Assembly (NCBI GenBank): GCA_037892935.1
Contig: JAYXKI010000007.1
Coordinates: 868,001-932,000, forward strand
Origin: Phlebopus portentosus
Lineage: Eukaryota > Basidiomycota > Agaricomycetes > Boletales > Boletinellaceae
Direction of reading: 5' to 3'
DNA length: 64,000 nucleotides
A program made the translations under genes and the position numbers. Every line of letters begins with the position of its first letter. The first letter of the stretch is position 1. The notes below the pieces were generated by a model. The model searched no databases. It saw only the letters and a program-made list of their open reading frames with translations, and had not been told where the DNA came from. Below, piece by piece: positions 8,343 to 52,509 of the stretch.

Positions 8343-10553
8343 TTATAGCACATAGCGAAATGCCAGGTTCTCCTTGTCTGTCAAGTCCAAAAAGGCCTTG
8401 TCTACTTTCTGTCTAATGACTTCCCCATCTTTCATTATTTCAACGATCTGGAAATCTTCGAAGACTTCCTTTCCAATACCTGTTTGCCTGGCCATTTCCT
8501 TCATCTTATCCCTGCGCTTATTTTCCGCGGATAGATCATAGCGAAGGACAAGTGTTAGAAGAATAGAGGCGAGATGCGACATGAGAGTAATCCCAAATGG
8601 TATGCGATTCGTGGGCCTGTATTGGCTACGCCAATATTGTGTGCAAAGGATCTGTCCCATGGCGTATCCGATTAGGAAGATAGCCGTGGTCGTAGTCCTC
8701 TAACAATGAAACATTGTGGCAAATCGCGTTAACAACCCGGGGAATTGCTTGATAAGAGAAAAGATGCGGTACCTTCGTGTGTCCGGAGACGGCAGACGTG
8801 ACCCAGGACATTGTCATAATAAACGCTGGTGAACTGCCCAAGTCTGCATGAGCAACGTCAGATATGCGAATTTACCTCGAAATCAGCCTTCAGAACATAT
8901 GAAGCTGTCAAGGACATACACAGGAGATAAATGCCGACCAGATGAGCAACTCTACTCTCCAGAGGAGTACATATCTCGATAAGACAACCGACAATAGCTG
9001 GGATCCAGGAAATAACGCTGATCCATGCTCGTGAATTCTGACAGTCGGCAAATCCACAAGGGTTAATATGGTCGCTCAGCGCTATAAGCAAGCAGGACGA
9101 GCAAACGTCGAAACATACCGGAAATCGTCGCAAAGCATAGCACGCAGAAGTAATGCCGATTATCTGCACGACGCCATTCGGTATACTGAGCAAACTCGTC
9201 TGTAGAGTCGTAAATCCAAAGCTCTTGATCAAAAGACTATATTCCACTCCTATCCCTCCAATCAGACTCGCGAACCCAGCAAAGGCTGCGAACAACCACG
9301 TCTTCAGATCCAGAAGTGCCTCCTTAACTTGATAAGATTTCCACGCCTTCGTTTCAATTCCGTTTTGATTTGCCTGGACTCGACGGACGGCCAATATCCT
9401 CTCCTGCGGTGTAAGAAATCGTGCAGTCGTCGGGTTATCCGGGAAGAAGAACGAAAATGCGAGAAAGGGTATCAAAGTAATCAAAGAAGTTGCGATCATG
9501 AGCCATTGCCATTGACTCGGCTTAGAGGTAGGAGAAGTGTGAACCATTGCAAATTGAAGGAAGGACGAGCAGATAGCAGCGAGACCGTTGCATTGGAAAA
9601 CCCACCCGAGTCGCTCGCCAATTTCAGTGCGAGTGTAAAACATCCCGCAGACAAGCATGAGTCCTGCCGTCATACTTCCTTCGGATGCGCCTAATAGGAA
9701 GCGAACCGCAACTAGATATCGCGGTAGAATCAACCAAAGCCACTAAAGCAAATGAAAAGCAAACTTACAAAGTTGGACGAAATTACGGCATGCTGCATGT
9801 AATCCTAAAAACAGACACCTACAGTTGTGCATTAGGTCTGAAGCTCAACAACAAACTCCCACAAATCGATTTACCAGAGGAAGATGTTAAATGTTAGCCA
9901 TGTTCCGACAGGCTGCCTCTGCAAAGCCCAGTTCTGGGGCCATGAGAAAACCAAATAGCCTGCAGAAGCCTTGAGTAGACTGTCGACAAGTCAGAATGAA
10001 GATAACTCACCGATATAGAAAGCAGAACTAAGTGTATTAAATTGGTCTGTAGTAAGATGATTATCGCTGATTAAGCCTAGGATGGATGTTGACGCAAGTG
10101 TGCTCCTAAACAAGTCGGAAACATAATTGATTGAGCTGGATGTTGAAGGAAGCAGCGAAAGGAAGCGTAAGGTAATTCTCGTGTCGATCATGACTGCGAA
10201 GAAGTGTGAATTACTGTAGTGTTTTGACTCACTTGTCGATGAACTGGACTGTGCTTCCAAACCATGTCAGGCAATCCTCTCCACCCTGCAGGAATGAGAA
10301 AGAACGCACTGGTATAGATCACACAAAGCAGAGGTAAGAGGTGTCTATCAATTTTCCGCCGGAGACGCTTCGACTCTTCTGGAAATATCTCTTGTTGGTC
10401 AGAGTGGCCGGCAAGCAACTTGAGAGCAACGTCAAGACGCTTTAGATTTCCATGAATATATTCTGCGTCCGGTACGATGGTCTTCTCGTCGATGAAAGAC
10501 ACGCTTCGCGAGTGATCGTTTGATGATCCAATCCTTTCTCTGTCGTGGTTCAT
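8343..10553 (-). CDS. MFS transporter, allantoate permease (DAL5)-like, copy 1
   Basis: Nine reverse-strand exons (10310-10553, 10233-10248, 10011-10105, 9875-9959, 9769-9818, 9119-9711, 8920-9037, 8773-8843, 8343-8699) give 542 residues in frame. The N-terminal cytoplasmic region contains KRLRRKIDRHLLPLLCVIY at the first membrane helix. Then come GLISDNHLTTDQFNTL, the helix-4/5 signature RFLLGASEGSMTAGLML, FFFPDNPTTARFLT in the central loop, WIPAIVGCLIEICTP and GYAMGQILCTQYW. This order is typical of the anion:cation symporter family (DAL5/TNA1/VHT1-like) that imports allantoate, nicotinate, vitamins or similar organic anions. The substrate is unknown. Exon lengths are identical in all nine exons to the gene at 52510-54686. 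Confidence 0.9.
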
Positions 10554-11687
10554 GCTTCACCTGATCCTCGTGTACGGAACGAGGCTGGCGGAAAGACAAG
10601 GGCGCGGCCAGAGGAGACATGTTCGTCTGAAGCGAGATATACATCCGCTCCAGTAAATTGCTCTTCAGCTGTTCCGCCTGAAGTCGGACACTGTGTAATC
10701 CACACTTAATAAATGTGTACAAATCTGATCTGCGGAAAGATGAACCTTTATCCGTACCGAGTTTCTGCTATATTTGTCAATAGGCATCTGATTGCAGAAA
10801 GGAGAATTTCCCTGCGAAGCTTTTTGTCTTTGTATAACCTGTCTTTTATTGGCTGAGTGGATAGAACATTGGCTGGAATTTGAAATTTCAGAGAGGCGCT
10901 CTAATCAATCACTGGAAGAGATGACATACCAAGTCCTCAGCCGAGGATATCCGGTATATTTCTGGAGAATAGGCCAGACCCGTCAACTTGGCCTGTGGAT
11001 AGGGGTTCAGCCGAACTTTGCGGCATTATGATCGATGGAAGAACATCGGACCTATCCAATATCCGCTCGCAACACCGGAGCAAGATGTCACTCACACACC
11101 GGTGTTCAGCTCCATTGTTACCTATAAAACTGCAGAAAGGCGAGCGGCGAATGGACCTCACTTACCGTAAAGCCCCTTTTGCAACATGTTATTCACCGTG
11201 GCTGAATTTACAATTCGGTCTGTTCGGGTTGATGGAAACAGCAGAAACGACTTGATGCCATAATTGACGAGGTTCCTTGAGAAGGTCATCAGGCTTCGCG
11301 CACGGTTACAGACACATTAGAACGACTGGCGTGCGAAGGGCAGAAGCAGATGACAAGATGTTCAGGTCTCCACAAAGTCCTGTAGTTCAAAAAGATAAAG
11401 GAAAACCCCAAGCACTCGATGGCAAACATGATCTTGCTCCTTTGCCCGGACGGAACCTTGCAACACTCTATGGAGTTGACCGAATGCGGGACGACATGCT
11501 ATATTCATGCTTTACTCAACATTTTGCGCCTTTCGCACAGGCACGAACACATTGTACGGTGCTTAGCCATAAAGAGTTGATAAACCACTTATCTAGAAAT
11601 GAATTCAGCGGAACTGCGTCGGCTGTGGGATGATCTATTCCACTCACAGAAAATAAGGTTAATGAATACACTGCTAAAAGAACTCAG
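10554..11687. other. intergenic region, no gene recognised
   Basis: About 1.1 kb between the MFS start and the end of the NDUFAF2-like gene. Several open frames (for example 11277-11633, +) occur, but none shows domains, plausible splicing or similarity to other proteins in the window. It includes the MFS promoter. Confidence 0.4.
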
Positions 11688-22815: not shown

Positions 22816-23646
22816 CGTAGCAGATCAGAGTCGTAAGTCGTTGAAAATCCGAAGGAAGCGACAACAGAGACGAAAAGAAATTTAAAGAAAGGAGTCGAAG
22901 CAAAGTCCTGACTGAATCGAGAGGATCCTTATCTACCCTTGCGAACATCGGCTAGACCCCATGCGTATCGTATTCGTATTGGCGAACACAAGCATCACTG
23001 AATTGCAATGCAGTGTCAGTTCTCGGCGCCGTGATTGACGCTGTCAGGATCAGGTTTGAGAAGTGCGTATCAGGCAAAGATCTTCGTCCCTCATCTCCAT
23101 CTCCATCTGTTCAACAGCAGGAACACTGTCATTGTCTTCAACGACTGCACTAAGCATTGCTTCTAAGGCACCTCCGAGCAGTCTTTGATACAAAGAACCA
23201 CGGCTTCCGAGTCCAATGTAATGCCATCCAAAACCCACTTGTTTGTCCGCGTGGGAAACGGTCTTCCATTTCTATCTAAGCGCGCCGGCCTCTCACGGAA
23301 CTTCATTCACCTTTAGTGACTCGCACGCCACCCAGAGTCACCAAAAACAGGTCTATCAAGCCGCCCTTGATTCAGTTATTCAATAAATGGAAAGAAAAGG
23401 ATTATATTCATTGCATGATTCGTTTTGATCGTGAACTGATCTACAGTTGAATACAAGTATTTTACACTTCTTGTCACGGAGGAACTGCTACTGTGGAAAG
23501 TGTCTTTTCTTAAGCGAACACCGTACACGTACAAAGCATCGTTCATCAAGTTAACGTGAGCTGGGGGTATAGCAGGATATAATCGGCTCATCGATGAAGC
23601 GATGATTTCGAAGAGACTAAAGTGCATGATGGCGTATTTTTCGATT
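22816..23646. other. intergenic region upstream of metacaspase 2
   Basis: About 830 bases. A reverse frame at 23050-23238 could encode 62 residues with an acidic end. A second reverse frame around 23140-23270 starts MEDRFPRGQTSGFW. Neither has support beyond being open. It includes the metacaspase 2 promoter and the 3' end of the membrane-protein gene. Confidence 0.35.
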
Positions 23647-25563
23647 TTAGTCATCATTCCTCTCCAAATCGTCGTGATGAGCAGATGACGGAAAAAAGGA
23701 AACGGGGATCCAAGAGAAGAGAGTCCTCTGGAGGCGCAGAACGTAGGCGACACCGAACAGTACTGCAACCATCAAGTACGCAATGCTCCCCGCGACGTAT
23801 CGATTGGACATAGGTATCACATCGAACAACGCAAAGGCTGTCTGCAAGATCATGAGACCTGTTGACCAGAACAGAAGCGCCTTCGGGATGCTGTACATCC
23901 ACGACAGGGGAGTGAATCCAAATCTAGAATGGCACATCCGACTGAGATAATCAGCCTGATTTAGAACATAGGAAAGTCAGTATCAATCTTCTCTGGATTA
24001 ATATGCAAACTGACTGCTTCTTGAGTCTCATAGTTCATTGGCAATCGATGGTAGTTGGCCAGGGCCATACTAGAGATGAAACCGGATATGGAGAGCGCCA
24101 GAGCTGCGACACTGATTGCTGATGAACCCATTGATGCGAAATAAATCACAGCGTGCATCCTTAAAAGCCTATTAGTCTAGGGACCACAAACAAATTTCTT
24201 CCTGCTCACGAAGTCAGACCGGTAGTCCAAAGGGCCATTTCTCTCCATTCATCAACACTTCTTGTAATGAACGTCTTCCATGGCTCGGCATACACGATGT
24301 TATCGATCCAAAGATTCTCTAATTCCGCAGCGTATCTCCGCGGAGTATCAAGTAGAGCAATTCTCGAGAAAACCCTCAGCAGGAACGGAAGATTGTCCGG
24401 AGGCGAATTTACAACCCTCTGGTCTCGCGAGAGGCGCGCACATTGCTCTCCATAGAAGTTTAGGAACCTGTGCCGAGCTGCCATGAAATCCATCAGAAAA
24501 AAAGGCAGTGCGAAAGCTTGGAACGGAAAGCTTACCGACTTGCGCCCATAGGCGGGCGACAACACAGATTATGTACTTATCGGACAGCATCTCGGAAGAT
24601 CCAGAAATATGATCGCGCAGCAAGTCCTGAAACTCCTTGCACTGGTCAGCGGTATACGGGAACGTTCCGACTAATGATGTCAAGTGATCTAATGAAACGC
24701 CCAGTCCGAATCTGTAGCGAAATTTTCATTTAAAGCACGCTTACCAGCTCTAGCATGAGTCAGAATGCTGTACAGGTCTCGTGCCCAGGACATTCGGAGT
24801 CCGTCTAGATGCGCCGAGAAGTACTCGACATGAGTCCAATACAACTCATTGGAAGTCAGACCTATAAAATTTGACCTCGTGTCGGCCGGAGCTTTAGCGT
24901 GAAAAGTGGAAGTTTGCGTACGGCACTGGGAGATAGATACTGAGTCGGGTATACCAAGTTCTTCCGAGGTGACCTCCTGCAGCCAGAACACCGTCGCGCA
25001 ATCATGGTCAACTAAGTAGTACCCGCAAGTGTTCTCGTTGTCCTCATCGAGCTGAAGCATAATCTCAATGGTGCCTGTAATCACGATCCTCTGTGCTTCG
25101 GCGAGTTTGTGTACGACGAGCATCCAGTGCGCGATGCTCTGATATTTTCCCGCGTCATAGATATTTGCTTCCGTGACAAAGCCGGCCTTTTTGAAGTAGA
25201 AGTAAGGCTGTCCCTCAGCCTGGATGTGGCTTGACCATCCTGAAGCTGAATACGGCGGCCTACGTGTCGTGTTACGTCATTAACACGCCCTTACAGCACG
25301 ACTTTGGTTTGATACTCACTCAGGCTCCCCTTGTCGTGAAAAGTATGCTGGAGGGATCCTCTTGCAAGAAAGATAAACGCTGAGAGAGAGGCATTCATCA
25401 GCACGAAAGCGATAAATAGAAGAAAGAATGAAACTAACCCGCTAGGTTTAGAATAGCGCGTGGATTGAGCTGGCGTGATGGGATAGAGGCCAGCAAAATC
25501 TGCGGAACACGTTTTCTGAGGCATGCCTTTCACGGAGTCCATTGACGCTCGTATGTGAGACAT
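23647..25563 (-). CDS. Agaricomycete-specific membrane protein, copy 1
   Basis: Eight exons (25439-25563, 25320-25379, 24922-25259, 24745-24861, 24536-24688, 24210-24477, 24015-24168, 23647-23955) splice to 507 residues, all in phase. The N-terminal soluble half contains SASGWSSHIQAEGQPYFYFK, GYYLVDHDCATVFWLQEV, NELYWTHVEYFSAHL and RFLNFYGEQCARLSRDQR. The C-terminal part has hydrophobic helices (IYFASMGSSAISVAALALSI, PKALLFWSTGLMILQTAFAL, YLMVAVLFGVAYVLRL), so the protein is probably anchored by several C-terminal spans. It is paralogous to 41703-44425: one internal exon is exactly 338 nt in both genes and the next is 117 against 114 nt. The family appears common in Agaricomycetes but has no known function that I can name. 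Confidence 0.78.
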
Positions 25564-26949
25564 AAGGCTAACAGGCGCAGGTAGTATAGAGCACTTTACG
25601 CGCGGAAAGGAGATATGGGAAAGCTTTCTGGGCAGTCGTCTTTATATGGAGCCGAAGTCGAATCGAACCAGGGTTCACACACAGCCTTTCGCCTTCTTTT
25701 GGTTGCTATGCTGATTCCTCTCATTCTTCCTACCTAAGCTCAGATAAAGAATATACATACCGGTGAATAGACGCTATGGCCAGTGGCCTGAGTGTACTTG
25801 CAGCTCGTCAACGTTGTGTTTGAAGGACAAGCCACGGCCACGGAATGAGTTGAAAACGAAAAAGTTCATTCGGAATTTGCCGGTCAAGCCGAACGAACCC
25901 CATAACTGATGACCTTCCATACTCAGTACGACGCCTGCAGTATTACTCCTGGTTACTCCATGAATCATCATCATTCTGTCCTAGATTCCACAGAGCTCAT
26001 GTTGGGAAATTCATTTTGTCATACGACTGCGGACGCCCGATTGCGCCGATTTCCAAGGTATTAAGGTCTCCTGCGGGACGAGACCCGAAGAGAATGTCAT
26101 GTAGAAACTGTTCTCCTCGCACTGCTATTCAGGTCGGCTTCTCATGAAGCGGGAAGCCGAGCTGAGGCTTGCGGTCGAAAAATCTGACCGTTTTTTTTTT
26201 GCCCGTGGCGCCGGACATGGTTGATTTGCGGAAACATTCGCCTCTTAAACTGCGTTCGGAAGACGGTAGACCCGGGGAACGCTCATGAAGCAACACCTAC
26301 TCGACATGTCGTTTCCACAAGAGTGCGATACGAGAGACGACGATTTTAGACCATCATCCCGATTATTTTCTGTCTACATTTGCGCTTCCTTGCATGGATA
26401 CTATCCAACGAGATGAAGCCGCAAATTAGGTAGGTGCGTATCATTTCACAGGAGGCTCCTAGTCAGATGAGACCGCTTCTGGACACGTGCGGTGCCTCCA
26501 ATTTGCGGAAGTTCTCCAACTTCTTTTGTATACTTACGTCTGTATAGCCCCTAGCCCCTGTGTTACTACTTACGCTGCCTCATGGCCGTGCAACGTGGTG
26601 TTCCCGGGATTTGCCATATATGGGGGCAATGCTCATTTTTAGCACTGCCTTCGCATGCTCTCTCGCTCTGATTTTAAACCGCACTGCCATTTATTTAGAA
26701 TGTCCTTCTCAACTGTCTGGTCAGCAAAGTTACAGGATGCTATAGTCGTCTTCTATAGTCGTCTTTTGGCCACTATTTGAAATCTCACTGACATACGGAT
26801 TCTTGGTAACTCGTAAGATGCCCGGCAAGCGCCTTCACTGAGCGTCTAATAGCACTTATAAACCTGGCAAACACCGTCGAGCGTCTCTCGACCGACTCTA
26901 ATAGCCATAACAGCTCTCACAGCTCACGATCAGAATATCGATTCAAGCT
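25564..26949. other. intergenic region, no gene recognised
   Basis: About 1.4 kb with scattered short open frames and a poly-T run near 26190-26200. No domain, tRNA or repeat could be supported. The TATAAA motif near 26857-26863 belongs to the following PRGK-family gene. Confidence 0.4.
26857..26863 (+). promoter_or_regulatory. TATA box of PRGK gene A
   Basis: A TTATAAA motif about 90 bases before the start codon at 26950. Similar TATA motifs precede genes B, D and E of this family. Confidence 0.45.
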
Positions 26950-27620
26950 ATGTCTGTACCGGAATTTATTCACACTGATTCCTCGACTGCCTTGGGAGGC
27001 GATGAAATGAAGTAAGCATTCAATACAGCAATTTGCGATAATCAAACACTTTGACTGGGTTGCCCTGACATAGGAATGATGGCTTGCCATCCGGGCACGG
27101 AGGAGCTGATTTGGAGGCGACTACTCAGACAGGCGTGGTAGACTTTGTCGACTCCGAGATCGGGGCCCTCAGCCGCCCTGGCCTCGTATCGATGACACAG
27201 GCCTTGGTGCAATTGCCCCGAGAGCCATACAGCGATGGAAGTTCTCCTGCGGCTGGATCCGATATTCCCAAGCTGTAAGCATACCGTATATAAGGTGGAC
27301 CAACGATCCAGATTTTGACCTGGAACTTCGCAGGGGAGCTATAAGAGCTGATATTGATGGCGCTTTACTAGCTGGCGAGGATGGCTGCGAGTAAGTCTGA
27401 TTCGAGAACTTCAGAAAGCGACGATCACCCTAACATTCTTGACTTAAGGTCAATCCCTAGCTTCACATCGAGGGGATCATTTAACCCACCAACCACCGTC
27501 GTGAAGAAGGATTCGAAAAAGGATTCGAAAAAGGATATAAAAAAGAACATGAAGAAGGACACGAAGAAGGACACGGAGGACACGAAATGTAACAAGACGG
27601 TGACAACTAGTAAATCATGA
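26950..27620 (+). CDS. PRGK-family small protein A, lysine-rich C-terminus
   Basis: Four exons (26950-27011, 27074-27274, 27334-27390, 27449-27620) give 163 residues. The first three exons each end after the second base of a codon, the phase pattern of the whole family. The last intron (27391-27448) contains CTAAC shortly before its acceptor. A nearer AG would make a 24-nt intron and is rejected as too short. The protein starts MSVPEFIHTDSSTALGG, continues with an acidic, hydrophilic middle, and its last exon has SFTSRGSFNPPTTVVKK. This is the divergent counterpart of the PRG[K/S] motif, followed by a Lys-Lys-Asp repeat tail. No signal peptide, membrane segment or CAAX box. Function unknown. 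First of five tandem paralogues. Confidence 0.65.
27501..27575 (+). repeat. short in-frame coding repeat (KKDSKKD type)
   Basis: Within the last exon of gene A, imperfect 9-15 base units built on AAGAAGGA encode Lys-Lys-Asp-Ser/Thr/Ile repeats. They form a strongly basic tail that could vary in length by slippage. Confidence 0.7.
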
Positions 27621-28526
27621 ACGATGCGAAGCCTACATGAATCCATAGAGCCACGACGATTTCATGATAAACTATACAAAACTTGTTCGTGTCACTTTTG
27701 GTGTATGTCCTCGCTATCAGACTGACTTGTTCACTAGTCACAATTTGCTATTATCTTGACATGGTTACCTTGCTACTATAATTACGAAAATGCTATGCAA
27801 AGTAGGCGGTACATGGTGCCTCTTTGAAGTGTATCTCATCTTTGGAAGACAATACATGGATGCTTCTACTCACTTCCATATCCTGCTAACACTGCCGGGG
27901 TTTGATAGCAGCTACAAGGATCTGCTGTGTCGTTGAAATCGTGTGAAAAGCAGTGCATAACAGAAAGCAGTCTTATCATATAGAAGTCGAGCAGTATTGA
28001 CTTTGACTTGAACACGTTTTTTCGTATTTCATCACCTTCCTCTCCCGAAATTCAATCGGATCGGAACAGCTGCACACGATTCCTATGTTGATAATCGCTC
28101 AATTCCCTGCTTTTCTAGGCAATTTAGTTTCTGACCCTTGGTTGCTGTGAATCATGCTGTTCAGGAGTTCCGGCTAGAACTTGATCTCTTTCCGTAAAAG
28201 CAAGCAATCATTCCGCAGATGACCGATTCACATTCATAGAATTGGCGGCCAAGTCCCCCTGCTATGCAAAGAGCAAGTATAGCATTCTGCTAATTTTAGC
28301 TCACCATTCCAGAATCTGCAGCGCGTTTGCTCTTCTGCACCACGTTGACTTCATGAGCTCGAATTTCCGTAAAGGCAGAGCACGTCGACGAGACTGTTGA
28401 ATCTTAAGGTTGAATTGATGCTAAAGACTCATGATATAATTTCACCAGAAGGGCTGTGCACGTGCGTCCGATTCATTCAGTTATAAAAGAATATCTTACT
28501 TGCCTGAGAGGACCCAGAAGCTAGCA
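27621..28526. other. intergenic region between PRGK genes A and B
   Basis: About 900 bases. No open frame with support. A TTATAAAAG motif at 28481-28489 lies about 40 bases before gene B and is a likely TATA box. Confidence 0.45.
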
Positions 28527-29032
28527 ATGTCCGCCCCTACTACACATACTACGAACAATATGAGGCGAGTCGCCAGTCTCTTGTGCAGTACATACGTGTC
28601 TGACTCAACATATACCAAGTAGCATCACCGTTGAAGCTGATAAAGGAGTCGAAATGGAACCACACATTGTTGAGAACGTCGTTTCGGACTATGTGCCAGG
28701 CATCCATAGCACTTCAAACGAATTCAAGGACGAGACGCCGTCTCCCGAAGCGTGCGTTTGCCACTTAGTATCTGTTCTGAATATGCACTGATGTCATGTC
28801 TACTTATTCTCAGATCTGCACAACCTAGCCCAGTCGTCAAATCCGACATCATCGAGGAGGAGGAAAAGCCCCCCATAAGAGAGTAAGTCTCGTTTGTTTG
28901 GCTCTTGACGTATCTTACGCAATCCGCCTCCCCAGTCACGATTCATCTGGTATTCATATAATACCGAGGGGCTCCCTTAACAAGCCGACCATAACAAAGC
29001 CAAAGCCAAAGCCAAAGCCGACCAAGAATTGA
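28527..29032 (+). CDS. PRGK-family small protein B
   Basis: Four exons (28527-28564, 28623-28751, 28814-28882, 28936-29032) give 110 residues with all three introns in phase 2. The first intron must start with GC (AG|GCGAGT) to keep the family phase, so it is a GC-AG intron. The protein starts MSAPTTHTTNNMR, has an acidic middle (DIIEEEEKPP) and ends with GIHIIPRGSLNKPTI and a Lys-Pro repeat tail. Its last exon is the closest match to the distant gene at 7537-7961 (FLPRGKLNKPT). No targeting signals. Function unknown. The conserved last exon beside fast-changing upstream exons suggests the C-terminus is the functional part. Confidence 0.65.
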
Positions 29033-29575
29033 ATGGAGGGGAATTATCGCACTGCTCTCGTTCTTTCTTACGCTGTTCATCATTTCTTTTTCATCACATG
29101 CTTGTTACACTTTTGAATTCCATTGCCAAGACTCACTTGACTCATGCATTCTTACCTCATTTCGTGTCAAAGGTCGAGTCCCGTCATGATCAAGGCCTCC
29201 GACAGAATAAGCATCTAAAGGGTAGAGCAGAATGGATCGAACCTGAATATTCCTAACCCTCCTTCCAGGAATTTGCAATTCGCGCCAACATGTCTGGAGG
29301 ATGCCTAAGTGCAGCCCTCGCTTCAGAAGTGTAATGAGTACTTAATCAGGCCTAAAGTCATCATGTGTGCCCCTTTGCGATTACTTCACTGGACCAGCGT
29401 CTATCTTTTGACCAGGATCTCTCACAACATCTTACCCTGAAACGGCCCGGTCTGGTAACTCCGTGCTGACTACAAAGTGCTATCTGCTCATAGACTCCGA
29501 GTGTTCTGATCGAGTTCTTACAATTACCTTTCATACACTGGCAGACCTGGGTCGACTTCACGCTCTTTTCTTAAG
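29033..29575. other. intergenic region between PRGK genes B and C
   Basis: About 540 bases with the promoter of gene C. An open frame at 29029-29256 is a run-on of gene B in another frame. Nothing else recognised. Confidence 0.4.
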
Positions 29576-30083
29576 ATGAGCGGTTCCGTTTGCACAAACG
29601 ACGACCTTCGGTGGGTTCGATAGTCAAGCTCCTGGGCTCAAAAACTGGACTGAATTGAACGCTAACCAGCGATCATTTGATCCACCACGCGGAGAGTATC
29701 GGAAAGGGATCCATCGAAAGTACAAATGTCACCGACGCTTCAACGAATAGTACTATCTTGAATGATCCCAAGGAATCAGGCTTATCTACCGAAGAGTACG
29801 TGTTTCATTCTTCGAATTTTCGACAGATGATAAAAGCGAGTTTGAGTAGCCGTGGTGATTTGGGCAATTCTGAATATAGCGATGAGACTGCCGGACACGG
29901 AGAAACTGATACATCTGAGTGAGCGCGAGCCACATTTTCTTTTAGTGCTGTGAAAATATTCCTTCCTTTTCTTTGAACAGCGAGACCGGCTCTGCAGAAA
30001 CATTTGTGCCTCGGGGTAAAATCACTCTGCTGACCACGACATCGAAGCCAACGAAGGATGATAAGAACAATGAAAGGTCGTGA
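29576..30083 (+). CDS. PRGK-family small protein C
   Basis: Four exons (29576-29610, 29670-29795, about 29841-29918, 29981-30083) give 113 residues, again with all introns in phase 2. It starts MSGSVCTNDDLR, has a Ser/Thr/Asn-rich middle (STNVTDASTNST) and ends ETFVPRGKITLLTTTSKPTK with a charged tail. The acceptor of exon 3 can be placed at 29840 or 29846. Both keep the frame. The motif FVPRGK is shared with genes D and E (FIPRGK, YIPRGK). No CAAX box or signal peptide. Function unknown. Confidence 0.6.
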
Positions 30084-30994
30084 ATTCCTACTGTTCCAGG
30101 TATTATTGAGTTTACGTCGGAGACCTGAATATAATATGTCCATCGTGATTTATGCACGAAAGCTGAGCTTGCTGCTCTTCGCGTTTTCCGTTCACGAATT
30201 TCGGTCAAGGATTGTCACTACGCCATAGCATGGGCTGGTCACTAACTTTCAGTAGTACAAGAAATCGGAGCGATATTCATCGAAATAGCTGTGTAGATGG
30301 CAGTGATGAGTTATACTCAAAAATAATCGAGCTTGTACCTACTTGAGAAGATCAGATCGTGAGATTCGTTGCCGGATGGCGCTCATTACTGACTTTCGCT
30401 TGTCGGTATCTTGATGGACGGTACGTAGAATGTTACTATCTATCTTTGGTCCAAATCTCGGACTAGGAATGAATGTCAACAATCTAGCTCCGGAAAGGGC
30501 AGATATGAAGGTACCAGAATTTGAGGGAATTGAATACTGGGTTTTCAAGAAGCGCACGGCTAAGGAAAGCTCGTACGTCAAGGTTATTGCATTCACACCG
30601 GATTGTTTCCGTACCTCAGTGCGACGTGTTGCATCTTGTGGAAATGGATCAATGGAACTTCTTTCCCTACCCCATCCACCTCTTACAACTAGTACAAGAG
30701 CGCCTTCCATGGTATTTAACCTCCACATGCATCTGAATGATCTTGTGTGATGCCAGGCCGCCTTGGCTAGCATGATGGTCGTCCACCGGAATGCATCATG
30801 ATCAACGTAGAAAATCAAAGGTGTTTTGATGGGATGGCACAGCACAGCCACTCATCATCACAGGAATACCTAAAGTGGCTATCACCGTGAGACTGGCAAA
30901 GCATCTGAGGCCGATTATAAGTAGTAAGATCAGGCCGCTCGAAGCCGAATTTATCCAGCCTTTCCCTCCTCTCGACGCTCTGTGAGAACACATC
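30084..30994. other. intergenic region between PRGK genes C and D
   Basis: Contains the possible gene fragment at 30430-30750 and, near 30916, an ATTATAAG motif about 75 bases before gene D that may be its TATA box. Confidence 0.4.
30430..30750 (+). pseudogene. possible gene fragment of unknown family
   Basis: Forward frames joined by a short intron-like gap (about 30581-30619) read from PERADMKVPEFEGIEYWVFK to CDVLHLVEMDQWNFFPYP and LLQLVQERLPW before a stop. The composition looks protein-like, but there is no credible start or upstream exon. A 170-codon reverse frame overlaps it. I treat it as a remnant with low confidence. Confidence 0.25.
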
Positions 30995-31699
30995 ATGAAT
31001 CACCCTACCGACGCTGAGATGCCGCTAGACGTCCCTGCAACGCCCGTTGTTGGAAAAGAGGCGGGCGAATCCACAACAACAGAAGCTCAAACTGCCGCCT
31101 TATCACCTTTGCCTAATGAAAATGGGTAAGCTCGCCGGAGAACCGATTTGTTCGCTGAAGAACTTAAATTCAGCTATTTCGCTTATCAGGATCGACAAAC
31201 CTAAAGAGAATATTGTGCAAACAGCAAAAACTGAACCTGCGTCTTCGATCGAGCAGCCCATTGCCAATGGAGCTCTGCAGAAAACTATAGCAATTGCTCA
31301 GCAAGAGGTTCAGTCCCCCACGCAAGAAACCGATGGAAATACCCGAGGCGATGCTGAGCAGTCCAATGGCGATGCCTCAGGAAATGTCCGTATTCCTGCT
31401 GATGCCGACCTATCCAAACCCGAGTGTGTTTTCCTTTCGCTGACACGAGAGAGTAAAGCGTTGAGTGCCCTATCATGTAGACGAGAGAACGGAGAACAAC
31501 TTGAAGGAGGCGTGAAAAAGGTTCGGAGAAGCAGCACTTTGTCAACCATCACGTAAGTTTTCTGTATCAAATCGTCTTCCATGACGAACATTCATATCGT
31601 TATAGTCAAAAGACCAAAGCGTTTATCCCGAGAGGGAAAGTGCATAGAAGAACCGCAGCTAGCCACGGTCGTAGTGGTGGTGGTTGCGTGATCTTCTAA
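30995..31699 (+). CDS. PRGK-family protein D with C-terminal CAAX box
   Basis: Four exons (30995-31125, 31190-31423, 31481-31552, 31606-31699) give 176 residues with all introns in phase 2. It starts MNHPTDAEMPLDVPATP. The body is Gln/Glu/Asn-rich and disordered-looking, including GNVRIPADADLSKPE. A basic patch follows (KKVRRSSTLSTI). The last exon reads KAFIPRGKVHRRTAASHG and ends SGGGCVIF. The terminal Cys-Val-Ile-Phe is a CAAX box, and a terminal Phe favours geranylgeranyl transfer, so the protein is predicted to be membrane-attached or processed to a lipidated peptide. It lacks other features of mating pheromone precursors that I could recognise. Close paralogue of gene E. Confidence 0.7.
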
Positions 31700-34011
31700 G
31701 AGCCGTGCAGACTGAATCGTCATTTATTTATTCACTATTCTCATTCAGCATGATGCAAAACTTCGTTTTTGTTTCGTATCAGTATTCATCGATGATGGAC
31801 ACGCTTATTGTTCTCTTCACCTTCATAATCTCCGTTTCTTGAATACATATCTATTCAGCATCATCAGTTTCCTTCCAGGCATTTTTTGGATCTTACGTAC
31901 CGATACGCACCTAATACCACTACCTTACTAGCTGCATGCCCGTATATTTTATCATGGATTCCTCTGAGAAAACGCTTCATAAAATTCATTTATATCGTAC
32001 CTTGTACTATTTTTTGAGGATAAACGCACTTGTAAAGTTCGACTCTTCTAATGTCGTCATTCACCTTCAAGAGAGTATATCACCCCTCAAGGCATCCATT
32101 TTACACGGATACAGGAATACAGTAGGAGCCGAATTTGGCCACAGCTGTGAAGAAGTAGAAATTTCCCGGAAGAATGCCTGACAATAGAAGTCGAAAAGCG
32201 AGGGATGGCAGGCACGTAAGGCGAGTACAATACACAGCTGGTGAGTACCGCTAAGGCTATTTTTGCTCGGTTTAGCTTGACAAACAGTAGCTGAGGTCCT
32301 GCACGTATAGTAAATAGACAGTCGAACCAGGACTCTCAATTGGTCTGAGAAAATTGTGAACGTCTGAGCAACGGGATTCCTTCATACGACACGGAGATAG
32401 CGATGCACATCCCCATTGAAGAAACATACAAACAACCCTGTTCGATTCAGGTATTGATATAGTATTCCAGATGGAGCTCTACAAATAACCAGAAAATTGC
32501 TGATGAAATCCCAAGATGCGTAGCGGAATAACGGCGCATGCCTTCGGCCGCCCAAATTCGGCGCAAGTTATCGGCCTGGCCGAAAATTGATATGCGCCGC
32601 AACGGTGTGGATCATCCATTTCAGTCAGCCTGACCGCCGTCGGTGTCCAGGCTGACATTGCCAATATTTGTTCACCGAGCGCTACAAAGGTATTGCTTAT
32701 GTAAATATTAGAGATACTATCCCGCAATATGAGCGGCAGAGAGCAACGTTGGTGGGCTTAGCACAATTATCCAACTGTTGTTGTGGTTAGTGAAAAGCGC
32801 GTCGCGGATGGATGGCTTCTCATTCCAAAATGAGTAACAGTTCTCACGCCTCCAGGCAAAATCACATTTTTCACACTCTCAAGATTCCGTACAAAGGTCG
32901 CGGCATGGCTCAATTCAAGCTATGGAACATCTTATCGGTGAAATTAAGTAGGAATTCAGGCCTTATTCAGCCCAACAGCATATGCATGTAGGGCTTATAA
33001 CGAGAAGGTATGTAAGAACCATCGATACTATGACTTAAGCTTGTTTACGTTTGCCTGTTTTGTTATTAAGGTGTGAAGTGTCATCCCTGTCGGATTTCAT
33101 GGTTTCATGATTGCGATTCACCTTCATCCGATTGCATCTTCAACTTTCGGTTCGGCCTTTGCTTCAGGTATCCGAGTAGATGTCTGGTTGTATTAGAGAC
33201 GCTGGTGCTCAGAACCAACGGCTTTCCGATACTAACTATGACGCAAAGAAGGTCAAAGGATTCATCTTTAAATCCGAGCAAACCTTCCGTATCTGCCACC
33301 TTGTGACATCGGTGAAGGCGCGGACACACGTACAATACATAGGCTAGTATCTGGAGTCGCCGTAATGTCAGATACTTTCTCTGAGAATAGGACGATAGAG
33401 AGTAAGATATTCTACTTCAGAAGTTAAGTGGCGCCTAAAATGAACCATAGTCTTACAGGTTGACCATTTCTTGGGCCGAAATGGAAAAGTTACTTATTGC
33501 GGGCCTGACTAACTATCCATACAAAAGGACGGGCCTATTTCAAATTTTAAGCGCTCGACCAAAGAGAAGATGTAAGTAAGATTGTAAATGAAAAATATGA
33601 TTTGATGAATTTATGAGAACGGATTCGGATAGTTTCCTTTTCTTTTCGCACTGCTAAGCGATGCGAACCTTGTACGGGCTGGTACAGCATCACTACTCCG
33701 AGTCGCCAGCAGAACTTCTTTGCCTCGTCTGCTACCCAGAAGTGTCAATCGTACCGTTCAATCACCATATGCATCAGAATGATTAGTGTGGTTGTCGCGA
33801 GCCTAGGCTCGGTGCTCATCGTCTGAAACGCTTTCATCAGGCTGGCATTACATTTATGATAACTGGAAATGTTCCCCATCATCACAGCATTGCTGAGTTA
33901 AGCTGATCGCCGACAGCACTGGCACACCGCCGAGGACGTATATAAGTAATGCTAGGTTGCTAGAAGTGGGACTGTCATCTCTCCTCTCTCGACGTCTTGT
34001 CTAGATTCGAC
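31700..34011. other. 2.3-kb gene-poor stretch between PRGK genes D and E
   Basis: Only short open frames without resemblance to anything else in the window. No terminal inverted repeats or target duplications were noticed. A GTATATAAG motif near 33938-33946, about 70 bases before gene E, is its likely TATA box. Confidence 0.4.
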
Positions 34012-34729
34012 ATGCCTCACCTTGTCAACGCTGAGATGCCACTGAACATCCCTGCGAACCCTGCAGTCGTGAGTGTTTCAAGAGAGACGAGGCCTGATGA
34101 ACAATCGACCGCTCCATCAGCCCCGCCCGGGTAAGTTTACCGAGTATCCGCCACATTCCTTCCCACATTCCTTTCCGGTCTATGAACTGATTTCTTCCGA
34201 TTGATAGGATGAGTAACGATCTATCACACAAGGAAAGTATCGCAATAACAGAGGGACAATTCGCGGCTCAAACCGAGCAGACTATTGCCAACCACGACTT
34301 GCCTCAGGGAATCACGGCCTCTGAAGAACATGAGGTTCAGTCCCTCGCAAAAAACCCAACGGCGATACTCAGAACGACGCTGACCAGCTAAGTGGTGGCG
34401 TATCAGGAGATGTCCGTATTCCTATGAAGGTCGAAGCCATCAATCCCGAGTACGTTTTTCTGCGACCATGAAGTAGACACCACTCAGCCCGGAACCATAC
34501 AGCCAAAACGACGAGGGAGAAAGTAGTAATGTGAAACAGGCTCGGAGAAATAGTGCCTTCGTGGCTATCGTGTGGGTATTTTATCATATAATTCTCTTAA
34601 TGTTTGAAGTATTCATGCATAGTCTGTAGTGATTTAACAAAACTATATATTCCGAGGGGCAAGGTGCACAAGCGAGCCACGGCTAGTCATTCATACACCC
34701 AAGATACCCCCGGTTGCGTAGTTTTCTAG
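34012..34729 (+). CDS. PRGK-family protein E with C-terminal CAAX box, one base short in a poly-A run
   Basis: Exons 34012-34130, 34208-34449, 34503-34571 and 34630-34729 parallel gene D. The start is MPHLVNAEMPLNIPANP, and the middle ends GDVRIPMKVEAINPE, as D does with GNVRIPADADLSKPE. The third exon has QARRNSAFVAIV. The last reads KLYIPRGKVHKRATASHS and ends TPGCVVF. In exon 2 the frame shifts at the six-A run 34349-34354. With one more base the total would be 176 residues, exactly the length of D. As written, the frame would stop after LAKNPTAILRTTLTS. The Cys-Val-Val-Phe end is again a CAAX box. Either an assembly error or a recently broken gene. Function unknown. Confidence 0.6.
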
Positions 34730-35652
34730 CATGTTTATATTTGACATTGACATTCATTTATTGCTTTCAGAGCAGTCCAGAGCTCGTGGTAGCGGCAGGC
34801 CAGCCAGCCACAACCTTCGAACAAAAAGTGGGTTCCCCTTACAGAGATCGCTTGGATACTTATGGTACTGTAATGATGAATAGAAAATGGTCGATGGCAC
34901 GGCACTTTGGCAAGTTCCTAAAGATCTTGTCCTCCCCGAAGCCAAGTACGTAGTGTGTTCTTTCCTGGCGGTGAGAAGATAAAGCTCAACTTCATTTCTT
35001 GTAAATGATATTGTAAAACACAGCACCCAAAGGCGTGAAAGAAGTCAAGAGGAGCAGCAACTCCGAACATAAACAGGCTTCTTGATTTTGTCTGTGATCC
35101 TCTGCAGTCGAAATGGTGGCTGCACTGTTTCAACCTCGCAACCTGCACTACCTCATCTTCTGATGCTTTGCGCGCTTTCTATCTCAGTCCGCATTTCATG
35201 GAGTCCATATATGTATATATCAATAGCCTTTAACAGTAGGATATAGATCCAATGAGTTTTGTTCTTTCTAGGCTATAAATATTACTCATATTTCATGTCA
35301 TGATGAATACTAGTACTAGTAGTACTGGTCATTCTGAAGAGTTACACTTGATGTGGACGGTTTATCGCTCAAACAATGCCTGCAGTGATTTCAAACTGAT
35401 AAATCTTGTGTCAAATTTTCGAACAGGTTCCGCAAAGTAGTTGCGATTTGTCCCTAGTTTCATAAGCGACGAATATCGCATCAAGTTTATGCACTGCATG
35501 ATATTCGAACAGAGATTATCATTAAACTATTATCAGCGGGATAAGTTGATTATCACTCCGAAGAGTAAGAGGAGCTTCTGAAATAGCACCGAGTCTGAGA
35601 GAAAGGCTGATAACTAAGAGTGCAAGAATTGAAGCGGAGAGTAGTAAGAGCC
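34730..35652. other. intergenic region
   Basis: About 920 bases between PRGK gene E and a reverse-strand hypothetical gene. A short ACTAGTACTAGTAGTACTGG-like microrepeat lies near 35310-35329. No gene recognised. Confidence 0.4.
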
Positions 35653-41702: not shown

Positions 41703-44425
41703 ATGGCTTGCTCTACTACTCCCAGAAAGCCCCCGCCAGCTCGCTCCTACACAAGGCACACATCGCTGGAATCGTACCACATGGGACCTACCTGTACTTC
41801 TCCTACATCGACTCTCCGCGAATTGCCAGGTTCCATATCCCCCTCGCCCATGTCGCCCAGGAACCCTACTTTATGCTTATCTGACGAGGACGGAAACACG
41901 ACGTGCGAGTTACCTGTACCACCGGGAACGACGGTCGCAGAACCTGCCAATATCGTCGCGCTTCCGGAAAAGCCATTCAAAAGCTTCCTTCCGTCTATGA
42001 CTTCACGATATGATCGTAATATAACCATGTGAAGAATTATATTGCTTCTAGTTCAATTTCATGCTAATTTGCTCTTATCAGACCGAATTATGTTGGACCC
42101 TGGGTATTCGAGCCTTTGGAGACGCTCACGGTTTACGAGTTAGCAATCTTTCTATACTTTTCGGAGAACTGATATGCTGATCGTGTGGCTCAGCGAATTG
42201 GACGTCCCGTATTGGAGACACTACATTCAACCAGAGGGACAACCCTACTTCCTCAGAGTCTCTGGAAGGTTCCATTACCTTACTGAGGAGAATCTCGACA
42301 ATCACTCGACACTTTCCGAGGCTGAGCACTTCATAAACACTTTCGAGCGCCGAGTGGAGAATTATAAAAGTCTGCCTACCAATGTGGAAGTCATGTTCGA
42401 GCTGCACAAAGATTATTGGTCGTACTACATGGTGGATCTCGACCATCGACGTCTTTTCTGGATAGATGAGTGCATCATCGACGACTCGGTTCTTCCGGGA
42501 AAGTTCGGCGTCGAGTATCGCGAACATTTTCGTGAGTTCCTTGCCATGTTTGTTTTGAACGTGATGTTTAAATGAAGTATCATGCAGGGTATGTATTTGA
42601 GTTTGAATATTGGCAGCACATCGACTACTTCCCGAACCACCGTCCGCTACAAAATGGTCTGTTGGACGAGTTATTAGGTATCCTTCTCCAGCAGCACATC
42701 GGTACGTTACCATTCTGTGAACCATATTGCAATCCCTGACCTCCTTCCCAGACGTTGAAACCTCACTAAGCTCTACCTCTGGCTTCAACGGTAACGAGCT
42801 CAAGTCAGCGATAGGATCTGTGAAGAAACTGCGATGTAAGCATAAATATATGTAATGAATGGTCTTTGGTGAAGTACTGACAGCAAAATAGCTCTTCAGA
42901 CATCGGAAAATGCTTTGCCTTATGTTGTCCAGGCATCAGGTAAGCCTTATCCATTCAGGACTCGCAGCATTCCCTCTGATAATAAATTCTATCAGCCCGC
43001 ATGATGGCCGTTCTCGGTAAGGCATTCCATGTCGCATCTCGTGCAATATCTCATGCTATAAACCATGTGCAGCAAACGAACGTTTCTTCAACTTTTTCGG
43101 CTTCAACGGCGCCCGTCTCTCACCTTACCAGAGCGTGCGCGGTCAAAACGGAAAGAAGAGGCGTTCTCCGCTGATCGCACTGCTTTCCCCCGCTCTCTTC
43201 TATGCGCCAGAGGTCCATCTTGTGGCGCTTGAGAAGGTGTGGGTCGATAACGTTATCAAGGTACGCCATTGGAAGGACTTCCAGGGGAAGATTGAGAGGG
43301 ACTGGGAACAATTCATTCTTTACGTGCGTTCACACCGCTCCTTTTTATGTCTTTTTCTTCCGCGGTAGGACTGATTATCGCGTTGTGTTGCACTATGGTA
43401 CGATAGGCGACGGTGCTCGTGAATGCCAACGTCGCATTCCTCGCTATCCCAAGCATCGTATCGGACGACCTAGGTCCAGGACTCCTCACTTCGCCTGCAG
43501 GCGTTGTGAGCCAGATCTCCATCATCGCGAGTATCGCGAGTATCATAATCGGATTATTGCTCGTTCGCCAGATGCGCATTGGGACCAAGGATTCTGGTGA
43601 AGATTATGTGCGTGATTAGTACCTTTCATTTTAATGTCCGAGAAAGTTTTTGCTCATAATGATAACGGTTGTTCAGCTCGCATTCGTCGAGAGTCGGACT
43701 CATCCTCAGCTGGGTCTCGAGACGTTAGCGATCTTGTACAGTCTGCCATATGCACTTCTGATCTGGGGGTACGTCCTTCCCCGTTGTTCTCTTCCTTTAC
43801 ATCTCATCTGAACCGAAATGCTACATTCTTCAGAATGGCGACATTCCTCGCTTCCATCGCCGTTGCCTGCTTCTACAGCATGGATGGGGACATCACGCTC
43901 ACCGAGCGAATCATCTACGGCATCGTCTGGGCCTTCGTCCTCATCTTTATCCTGTGGACTATCCAGACGGGCTGGGAGAAGAAGCGCAGGCGGTCTTCAT
44001 CGCTTCCTTCCTCACCCGCTCCCGATAACGATTCTGAGACTGAGTCGACCGTGCACTCTGACACGGCTTCGGGACCGGAATTGACGCGGCGAAAGGCCAG
44101 CAAGAACTTGGGCCCCAATCTGCATGGGAGCATAAGCGAAGCCGATGAGATCGAGCTTGACGCGATAGACTCGGACGCACGTTCCGTGCGTTCACAGCGC
44201 TCGATGCGCTCGGTGCGGTCTCGTCTTACAGCTTCTTCCACTCTCGCATCTAGCATCGGACATCCGTGGCGCTTGCGTAACGCACGGAATCGTTCTGAGC
44301 GAGCTGAAGGTCCCAAAAGGAGCGGATTTTTGTCTTTGTCGTGGCCATGGTGGGTAAGAAGTGCGCCGATGGCGGAGAGGGATCGTGGGGGCTTGCCTAA
44401 ATTCGAGACGAGGCCTACTGTTTGA
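41703..44425 (+). CDS. Agaricomycete-specific membrane protein, copy 2
   Basis: Eleven exons (41703-42028, 42082-42138, 42194-42531, 42588-42701, 42752-42835, 42892-42939, 42996-43016, 43073-43323, 43407-43607, 43677-43768, 43834-44425) splice to 707 residues, all in phase. The frame is open back to 41451, which would add 84 residues. A Ser/Pro/Thr-rich N-terminus precedes ELDVPYWRHYIQPEGQPYF, ELHKDYWSYYMVDLDHRRLF and ERFFNFFGFNGARLSPYQ. The hydrophobic C-terminal segments are ATVLVNANVAFLAIPSIV, ISIIASIASIIIGLLLVRQ, LGLETLAILYSLPYALLIWG and YGIVWAFVLIFILW. A basic, Ser-rich cytoplasmic tail follows. Paralogue of 23647-25563 on the other strand. A 21-nt exon (42996-43016) is notable. Function unknown. 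Confidence 0.8.
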
Positions 44426-49959: not shown

Positions 49960-52509
49960 CCGCGATGATAAAACTTTTTCTTAGCGTAGAAATTAGAATG
50001 TGAGTCTTCCGTTAAGTACTTTTCATGATCTCTTGTGGATATCCTCTGGTCTGTTATCTTTGTTTATCCTATGTAACTGTATCCGTATTTATTCATCTTG
50101 ATGACGACTCAAATACTTCTGATGAAATCGCACTGTGACTACAGACTGTTATTGATTTCTTTCGATTTTTGAATTGACCCGCATCATATACTACTCCAAA
50201 AATTTTAGCATCAATCAACCGCGAGTACTCTGATCAGGTCAGGTATCAGTCTATTCATTCTCCCGGTCTTTTCCCGCATCTTTACAACACTGTTCAATAG
50301 GATTGCTCATTCTCCGCAGATGTCGGCCAGTCATTCAATAGGTCGGTCTTGATATCGAGAGGTTGACTCTTCCATGACGACGCGCTGATAAGTTGGAAAA
50401 CTGAAGACTGTCAGACTCCTCTGACAGGGAGATTCCTAGTTCATTAAGCTCGACGAACATGCGGTATGATATTCTGAGCTAGGCTACTTATCTCCACATT
50501 CTGAGCAGACTGTGATCCACCTAGAAAAAATCTGAAAAAGTCTTGTGCAAATTAGGTACCTTGAAGAAGTATATGCCGCATCGGGCCCACCTCTCGGCAA
50601 TACCTCCGAGTCCGAGTCCGAGTCGCTCAGCAGTCAAAGAAGAAAAAATGAGCTAGTTCCTCTGACGACGTTCTCCACTTCCTTGTTTCGATCTATTTCA
50701 CTTAGCCATACTTTCGCGAACCTGACGTTATTTCTTTTGCCAACGTCATTTGGGGTCCGCCGGTGCCGTGGGCTAAACTTCTCAGAGAGGAAAGAGAATC
50801 TGGCCTCCCTATGCGGAACTAATTAGATCTTGGGAGGCTCAGGCTTTAACTGGAACAAGGCTAGACTGCAGCTGACATTCATGCTTACGATACTTCTGAG
50901 GATGAACTCGTGAAAACTTCAAGTATACCATCATGCATGGCTAGGAGCTTTTGCGCCACCGTCACCAGGAAGAGCTTGGTCTGGACTTTCAATCATCAAG
51001 CGCTGATTAGTTGATGATCATAAGGTAGAATTTCTCTTTGATTTGTTCGAAATCTTTTAAAGACTACATTACCGGGCAGGTGCTGTTCGTTCTCTCATGA
51101 GAATTTTGAGTGGTACATCTGCTCCTGTGATAACGGAGAACTAGGAAGGGCCTTTCGCAGCGGATTGATTCCGACTCCAAAGAATTCTGGATCAGTCAGC
51201 GGCATGGTTTTCTGTGACGACATGCATGATTCTATCCTATCGCGCACGCTTCCTTGATTCAACGCCTCATGATGGCCGTAAGCCCGCAAGTACCCACGAG
51301 AGCAATGAATGCCTTCAGCACTGAAACTGTGAAAGCACTCAAGCGGACTAACGTACATTTGTATCTAGCTCTTCCTGTGAATATGTTCCTCGCCTAACTA
51401 CTGGAAGATATTGGACTTATCCTTCCTCCAACCTCGAATACGTGACTGATAACACCTAGGTAATGGATTGAATTCATTTCCGGTTACAGTCTACATCCCG
51501 CAAGACGGCGTATTCAGAACCCAGCCATTCTTGAGAAAACCGGCTAGGAATAGTCCTGATCTCCATAGGTCCGAGGGGCACTGAGGTCGAAGAGAACAAA
51601 AAGATTCTCCGGGACAGCCGTACGCCGTTTGAGCAAGAGATCAACTGGTTCCGGGACGTTCAGTTCACTCCGTCTTGGAACGGCTTGGGACAGTGTGGAC
51701 CGAAGATTAGACACGGATAAGGTACCTGGCAATTTCTGTCTCCGCCAAAGATCAGTTTCGGGGCTCCCATAAATATCCATGGGCCAGTAAGGTTCAATAC
51801 AATGTGTTTTGAATTCAGGAGGTTCAGAAGGGAGAGAAATTTCTGATGCCGCTGCGCTGCGATCAGACGCGGCGAGGCGGATAGAAGCGCCGGCTCAGGC
51901 CAAGTTCACGGGTCAGGTTTATTTTTTTCTGTTGACCCGAGAGCGATAAGGTAAATCGACGCTATTGCAGGATTGAGTAAGCCGGAGGACTCGTGTCAAG
52001 CCGCGTCTTCTGAAATTCTCGCTTCTGAATCTCAGCTTCAAGTTCATGGGAGCTTTACGCAACTGATTGAGATGTGTTGGTCGATCCTTCAGGATGATCG
52101 AGTGCTTTATTTACACGCTCCGTCTTCGGTGCAATGTGTCGTGTCCAGGAAATTACATATAAATTGCCGAAAATAGTCGACAAATGGAGAAAGTCAGGCT
52201 ACGGAAAATCGATTCAGGCACACCTGACTTTCCTCAATCAGTCGCTAAACCTCTTGATTTGGAGAATTTGGAGTGCGGCTGTACATAAAGGGCGCTTGAA
52301 ATCAAATTAGATCTGATCTCAGACGGGTGTTTTGCATCCGCCGAGTCCAAGGTGTTGGAAAGGAATTATCGAAGCAACCCTCAGTCTGTCATATATCTTG
52401 CCTCAGCGGCCATATGTCCTGGTCCGTCCCCGTCCTGCTTTTTCGTCTCCCCTTTTCTTCTTTGGCTCCTTGACAACTCTGCGGGGGGTGGACACATCGC
52501 GCTCGCATC
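49960..52509. other. 2.5-kb gene-poor region upstream of MFS copy 2
   Basis: Several open frames occur (for example 50545-50826 +, 51095-51358 -, 51544-51780 -), but none has a recognisable domain or joins to others in a convincing gene. A (TCCGAG)n microrepeat lies at about 50604-50622. Decayed genes cannot be excluded. Confidence 0.4.
50604..50622. repeat. hexanucleotide microrepeat (TCCGAG)3
   Basis: Three consecutive TCCGAG units within an open frame (encoding Ser-Glu repeats) in otherwise gene-poor sequence. Confidence 0.6.

Follow-up and report, generated by a model that had tools for sequence, protein, structure and literature searches.

Do several small neighbouring genes that have in common an exon plan, a short last-exon motif, and little else make up one gene family, and what might the common exon do? 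The question is raised by a stretch of 64,000 nucleotides (positions 868,001 to 932,000 of contig JAYXKI010000007.1, assembly GCA_037892935.1, filed under Phlebopus portentosus; hereafter the window), in which an original prediction had proposed a fast-evolving family of five such genes. We label these g1 to g5 in order of position, and a sixth, added here, g0. The best database protein match to the window comes from Sanghuangporus sanghuang, at 97%, and from this match we take the window to be DNA of Sanghuangporus, a medicinal wood-decay mushroom. We find a real gene family of at least six copies, larger than the first five, whose members are joined mainly by their last exon.

A family recognised by its last exon

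The six genes are given below, with P0001 to P0013 denoting annotated Sanghuangporus orthologues.

7537 to 7961, minus strand: g0, four exons, 75 residues, motif LPRGKLN; introns 7923–7849, 7776–7710 and 7652–7598, all phase 2; last exon of the gene model 7537–7597; annotated 75-residue orthologues P0012 and P0013
26950 to 27620, plus strand: g1, four exons, phases 2,2,2, motif FTSRGSFN; last exon 27461–27620 with the acceptor of most public models (27449 is its start with the acceptor first predicted); orthologues P0005 to P0008
28527 to 29032, plus strand: g2, four exons, phases 2,2,2, 110 residues, motif HIIPRGSLN; last exon of the gene model 28936–29032; orthologues P0009 to P0011 and the second half of P0005
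29576 to 30083, plus strand: g3, four exons, phases 2,2,2, 110 residues in the model used, motif TFVPRGKIT; last exon of the gene model 29981–30083
30995 to 31699, plus strand: g4, four exons, phases 2,2,2, 176 residues, with KKVRRSST, AFIPRGKVH and the CaaX box CVIF; last exon 31606–31699, holding the motif and CVIF; orthologues P0001 to P0004
34012 to 34729, plus strand: g5, a g4-like paralogue with the CaaX box CVVF and a frame break in exon 2; last exon 34630–34729, holding the motif and CVVF

The motif strings first reported are all present in the last exons of g1 to g5, as TSRGSFN (g1), IPRGSLN (g2), VPRGKIT (g3) and IPRGKVH (g4 and g5). The family consensus is hydrophobic-P-R-G-K/S-hydrophobic-N/H/T, with S for P in this strain's g1; all four g1 orthologue models read FTPRG where the window has FTSRG. 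The motif had been described as C-terminal; it does not stand at the very end of the protein, as between 7 (g0) and 44 (g1) residues follow it. Its recurrence in the window is not a matter of chance. A loose pattern, written after the five peptides were known, gave five six-frame matches, all in g1 to g5, against a mean of 0.17 in 30 first-order Markov simulations, and a stricter pattern also gave five, four in family genes and one at 37117 (simulated mean, 0.4). An AT-hook reading of PRG was dropped, as the PRGS members do not fit it.

In shuffle tests, last-exon similarity was strongest between g4 and g5 (z 18.4), followed by g0 against each other member (z 6.7 to 9.1; g0-g1, 8.2), g2 and g3 against g4 and g5 (z 3.1 to 6.9), and g1 against g2 (z 3.4). 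The exons upstream hardly match, as had been stated: none of the 10 pairs among g0 to g4 rose above shuffles, with g5 left out and an early, partly wrong g2 N terminus in use. When each member was withheld in turn from the profile, five of the six (g0 included) ranked first after the training pieces, with expectation values (E) of 2.9e-7, 6.1e-4, 4.5e-3, 1.9e-7, and 1.3e-5, compared with 0.5 for the best nonfamily piece. The profile missed g1, at rank 200 by default, and placed it at rank 6 (E 0.021) without composition correction; its four orthologues scored E 4.7e-5 to 0.015 without the correction and 0.0035 to 16 by default. Membership of g1 would thus rest mainly on its likeness to g0 and g2, on the phase plan and on its position. 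A single family with a common last exon is supported by the g0 and g4-g5 pairs and by the profile recovery, and not by g1 against g3, g4, and g5, to which we return below.

The sixth member came out of a profile built from the last exons of g1 to g5 only. Among 2895 six-frame pieces of the window, the g0 piece came next after these five (E 2.9e-7), and the following piece had E 0.9. The sequence, FLPRGKLNKPTVVKK, occupies 7540-7605 of the minus strand. S. vaninii (ACEPAH_1538) and S. baumii (ACEPAG_8717) each have an annotated protein of the same length, 75 residues, 92% and 89% identical to g0. The rule contained in the original prediction, structure plus motif, therefore predicted a gene that it had not listed, since the profile of its own five exons found g0.

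Gene structure, orthologues, and coding constraint

All six members have four exons and phase-2 introns (g5 being judged from its downstream frame), and exon 3 measures 57 to 72 nucleotides in every one. The description of five same-strand, four-exon genes with all introns in phase 2 holds for g1 to g4 and fails for g5. At the coordinates first given, g1, g2, g3, and g4 are open from ATG to stop on the plus strand, and the rebuilt models of g1, g3, and g4 have phases 2,2,2. The same is true of g2 provided that its first intron, at 28565–28622, is a GC-AG intron in this strain, and g2 read in this way resembles the S. vaninii protein P0011. The nonstandard donor may explain why S. sanghuang P0005 (ACEPAF_1393) joins g1 and g2 into one protein of 258 residues, a fusion that is probably a prediction artefact. 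Two in-frame acceptors 12 bases apart give g1 either 159 or 163 residues, and three of its four public orthologue models use the one not chosen originally. The acceptors of g3 are uncertain, as the model used ranked third in an ad hoc splice score, with two higher-scoring models having the same donors and, by arithmetic, the same phases. The g0 model, with three GTGAGT donors and phases 2,2,2, was fifth in that score, after four models with four introns.

In this assembly g5 is not open as a four-exon gene, as its second exon contains a frame shift near a run of six A at 34349–34354. Good splice sites and the last exon are retained, and both halves of exon 2 resemble g4 exon 2, each in its own frame. 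Because of this residual likeness, the break would be either recent, making g5 a pseudogene, or an error of assembly.

With intron 3 retained, the first complete codon of the intron is a stop in g0, g1, g2, g3, and g4, though not in g5. The immediate stop follows from phase 2 together with donors of the GTAAGT, GTGAGT, or GTGAGC type; it is a generic outcome of such an arrangement and no proof of regulation. The S. baumii model of g4, P0004, stops exactly at the end of exon 3.

Protein searches returned 4, 7, and 2 matches at E up to 10 from 102, 1137, and 4 candidates, and all 13 were Sanghuangporus proteins, orthologous to g0, g1, g2, or g4. These searches require common five-residue words, the database is clustered at 90% identity, and short genes often go unannotated; within them there was no annotated orthologue of g3 or g5 from any species, and no g0 protein of S. 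sanghuang or S. weigelae was returned from the clustered database. Locus tags of g1, g2, and g4 are consecutive in S. baumii (8725-8727), S. vaninii (1530-1528), and S. weigelae (9969-9971), g0 lies eight tags from g1 in S. baumii and S. vaninii, and in S. sanghuang tag 1393 covers g1 plus g2 and tag 1394 covers g4. Gene order thus appears to be conserved, as far as the tags show. The annotation behind these tags was made with BRAKER3 and its fungus option, and the section of the source that describes it does not state whether RNA evidence was used (PMC12001456). The abstract of the S. sanghuang genome paper dates the genus at 15.39 million years (PMC8537844).

Used as a full-length query against the genome, g4 retrieved itself and g5, and g1, g2, and g3 each retrieved only themselves; diverged copies would be missed by such searches. 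Three degenerate motif patterns run over the whole genome gave 4, 8, and 2 matches, versus 3, 6, and 1 for reversed controls. Dispersed family copies elsewhere were rejected on these counts, which do not exceed what chance would give; a copy like g1 would be missed, TSRGSFN lying outside the patterns. The notable point is that five of the 14 matches fall on g0, g2, g3, g4, and g5, and the other nine (L027-L032 and L034-L036) lie outside C7, the contig that holds the window. None of these nine exceeded 11.0 bits with the family profile, compared with 38 to 47 bits for members, the short pieces of g1 excepted. The best nonfamily score, 11.0 bits (E 0.082), belongs to L032 (C5:168193, plus strand), where VPRGSLN stands in an open frame. 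Families recognisable by one short exon are nearly invisible to similarity search: full-length searches with g1, g2, and g3 returned only themselves; this family came to light by reading gene structure and motif jointly, and the same rule gave the sixth gene.

The absence of a described family, as first suggested, is borne out as far as we looked. A Pfam scan of the g1, g3, and g4 models and of P0012, P0010, P0011, P0005, P0006, and P0001, covering g0 and g2 through orthologues, gave no match above cut-off (best E 0.1). Literature searches found nothing under six locus tags or the motif strings, and nothing on disorder combined with a C-terminal motif and prenylation in basidiomycetes. The family is apparently undescribed.

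Codons of g4 and g5 were compared one exon at a time, the two halves of the broken exon 2 being treated separately. Synonymous differences numbered 79.8 over 112.8 sites and nonsynonymous ones 131.2 over 370.2, for proportions (pS and pN) of 0.71 and 0.35 and an omega of roughly 0.22, with synonymous sites near saturation. By piece, omega was 0.20 in exon 1, 0.56 in the second half of exon 2, and 0.33 in exon 3; synonymous change was saturated in the first half of exon 2 (pS 0.77, pN 0.37) and in exon 4 (pS 0.85, pN 0.30). Judged from these codon counts, g4 and g5 are under purifying selection, and with omega at roughly 0.22 it would be constraint and age, rather than positive selection, that separate them. 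The label "fast-evolving" should thus be used with caution.

Identity of the orthologues to the window over exons 1 to 4 was 0.88, 0.88, 0.89, and 0.97 in g0; 0.82, 0.79, 0.80, and 0.78 in g1; 0.33, 0.75, 0.95, and 0.86 in g2; and 0.88, 0.87, 0.97, and 0.99 in g4, where P0004 has no last exon and was not counted for it. That the last exon is always the best conserved was therefore rejected. It is so in two of these four genes (g0 and g4), second in g2 and lowest in g1, which gives partial backing to the proposal that the last exon carries the function.

Protein features and their possible meaning

The bodies, first described as acidic or Ser/Thr-rich, are acidic, with a charge of −10 to −13 in g0 to g4, and the last exons of g0, g1, g2, and g4 carry +5 to +9, with Lys-rich tails in g1 and g2. 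The C-terminal ends of g4 (GGGCVIF) and g5 (PGCVVF) are CaaX boxes, a feature overlooked in the original prediction and found in these two of the six members only. S. sanghuang, S. vaninii, and S. weigelae have exactly the same g4 tail, TAASHGRSGGGCVIF. The three of four g4 orthologue models that include the last exon keep the motif and CVIF, with agreement at 89 of the 90 residues compared. Across the whole genome, GCV followed by V, I, or M, then F and TAA or TAG (TGA not being covered), matches twice, at g4 and g5. Two stretches, KKVRRSST (g4) and ARRNS (g5), resemble basic-directed kinase sites. No N-terminal signal peptide was evident by eye. AlphaFold2 gave g4 a mean per-residue confidence (pLDDT) of 49.1 and no secondary structure. 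Both farnesyltransferase and geranylgeranyltransferase 1 can accept the CVIF box of R-Ras2/TC21 (PMC1175975), so the g4 box is of a CaaX type reported as a substrate.

The reading that we tentatively prefer, at a probability of about 0.4, is that the members are small, mostly disordered proteins residing inside the cell, that they dock a shared partner through the last exon, and that prenylation ties two of them to the membrane. The last exon would be the working part, a short linear motif binding that partner. The basic tail of most copies would draw the protein towards acidic surfaces, for instance the inner leaflet of the membrane, and the acidic body, free to diverge, might set charge, spacing, or turnover. 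Through their CaaX boxes g4 and g5 would be prenylated and held on the membrane, with g0 to g3 soluble, so that one docking motif would serve two locations. Two points support it most strongly: the copies have the motif in common although their bodies show no match, and the CaaX box has been retained. Of the two functions first suggested, a binding motif is preferred to a processed peptide, because four of the six members have no CaaX box. If docking and prenylation are both true, gain or loss of a four-residue tail would place one motif in the cytosol or on the membrane.

It is also important to point out the observations that weigh against this reading. The last exon of g1 is its least conserved one, has S for P in the motif, and shows no significant similarity to those of g3, g4, and g5 (p 0.13, 0.39, and 0.26, respectively). 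The last exon of g3 has a net charge of 0, and S. baumii P0004 is annotated without the last exon of g4. A CaaX box alone is no proof of prenylation, and the reversed CaaX control pattern gave four matches, so the two genome matches are no enrichment in themselves and tell us only that the genome has no further box of this form. AlphaFold2 placed a single helix at residues 3 to 23 of g0 and no further elements, so that this protein is not wholly disordered; the alignments held only 2 and 3 sequences, and low confidence obtained from them is weak proof of disorder.

Alternatively, the basic last exon might bind RNA, DNA, or an acidic protein in the nucleus or cytosol, the family being charge-polarised chaperone-like or stress proteins and the CaaX box an accident of drift. 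The acidic bodies, the Lys-rich tails of g1 and g2, and TATA-like boxes upstream of four of the six genes (a rough comparison, given below) are consistent with this. It is rather unlikely, as CVIF is unchanged in the three of four g4 orthologue models that carry the exon, and g5 keeps CVVF at a last-exon pS of 0.85, which drift would hardly retain. Somewhat less probable again is exon sharing, in which small genes that are otherwise unrelated each received a copy of a single last exon and the members are not whole-gene duplicates. The failure of all 10 upstream pairs to rise above shuffles (with the same reservations on g5 and the g2 N terminus) is what such exon sharing would leave behind; however, the six members are alike in their four exons, phase 2, and exon 3 of 57 to 72 nucleotides, g4 and g5 are similar in all exons, and acidic bodies are common to g0 to g4. 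That the models are noise, open frames with a chance motif rather than genes, is hardly credible. All support is computational, and the searches returned no annotated orthologue of g3 or g5, but g0, g1, g2, and g4 have separately annotated orthologues, the g4-g5 omega is roughly 0.22, and leave-one-out profiles recover five of the six members.

It is also conceivable, at long odds, that g4 and g5 encode precursors of prenylated peptide signals. A cut before the Gly/Ser-rich segment, perhaps just after HRR, would free a lipopeptide whose last residue is the CaaX cysteine, as basidiomycete pheromones have, and g0 to g3 would have lost the box or never had it. Read by eye, g4 has HRR ahead of TAASHGRSGGG; a maturation site of the ER or DR type, expected of pheromone precursors shortly before the CaaX, is not seen there. 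Both genes have CaaX ends, and in g4 a Gly/Ser-rich run precedes the cysteine. Near the STE3 receptor matches (76 kb at four places, eight stretches, L038-L045), a scan limited to open frames of 25 to 130 residues holding both ATG and CaaX, which would miss a split gene, found five CaaX open reading frames, none pheromone-like by eye, a result that also favours this alternative. One of the five represents the final part of a receptor frame; another contains a stretch that seems to resemble a ribosomal protein. For S. sanghuang strain MS2, the genome paper mentions no gene for a pheromone precursor in the portion consulted (PMC8537844), and g4 and g5 are candidate CaaX genes in this genus. On the other hand, the 12 STE3 matches are all on contigs C9 and C6 and the window is on C7, and a mating-locus reading of the array was rejected on this ground. 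The g4 tail, identical in three species, is ill suited to allele-diverse mating pheromones, and four of the six members have no CaaX box. A Trichaptum study used a short-frame yardstick of 100 to 200 bp and excluded precursor matches longer than 200 bp or far from STE3 (PMC8970355); g4, at 176 residues in four exons, fails it. A further variant, in which g4 and g5 are unconventional, receptor-unlinked CaaX-lipopeptide precursors, the motif directs processing or export, and intron 3 retention switches between motif-bearing and motif-free protein, strikes us as very improbable.

Comparison with known systems leads to partial likenesses only. Precursors of the Trichoderma h-type class have repeated processing units, and none was seen by eye in the family here. 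Lineage-restricted tandem (orphan) families are common, and the present family resembles them in having been detected in one genus, in tandem copies, with no known domain; it differs in that its copies resemble one another only in the last exon (apart from the pair g4-g5) and in that a single array holds both presumably soluble and CaaX forms, a combination that is unusual. Basidiomycete CaaX pheromone precursors (B locus, phe/mfa) are likewise small proteins ending in CaaX, as g4 and g5 are, whereas these two genes are not linked to STE3, g4 encodes 176 residues in four exons with a tail that is the same in three species, and four of the six members here end without CaaX. The Trichoderma h-type pheromone precursors are alike as fungal CaaX precursors off the standard form (PMC3068285). 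The polybasic-CaaX anchors of R-Ras2/TC21 share CVIF and upstream basic residues with g4 (PMC1175975); the proteins scanned have no Pfam match above cut-off, and so no GTPase domain, and the likeness is C-terminal only.

Flanking genes and minor observations

An inverted pair of major facilitator superfamily (MFS) transporter genes brackets the array, at 8343-10556 (minus strand) and 52474-54686 (plus strand), with outer limits read from open frames. The middle frames of both match Pfam MFS_1 and are 72% identical over 210 residues. Directly downstream of the minus-strand gene lies g0, and the family profile found no window piece past the plus-strand one. A second inverted flanking pair, of distantly related genes at 23376-25641 (minus strand) and 42126-43368 (plus strand), likewise with limits read from open frames, shows 27% identity over 106 residues, and the minus-strand gene of this pair has a marginal PA14 match.

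TATA-like boxes stand 46 to 94 bases before the ATG of g1, g2, g4, and g5. Random 80-bp segments contain the pattern in 5.7% of cases, but this comparison is rough, since segments of 130 bp were used for the genes and the pattern was picked after these had been read.

One further feature lies beyond g5:

35031 to 35059, plus strand: candidate decayed fragment resembling g4 exon 3 (GVKEVKRSS versus GVKKVRRSS)

Similarity of this stretch to g5 was not significant. Against g4 exon 3, the stretch, which had been picked by eye beforehand, gave z 4.7 (p 0.007) as DNA and z 5.7 (p 0.0003) as peptide, and it is possibly the remnant of a former further copy of the CaaX type.

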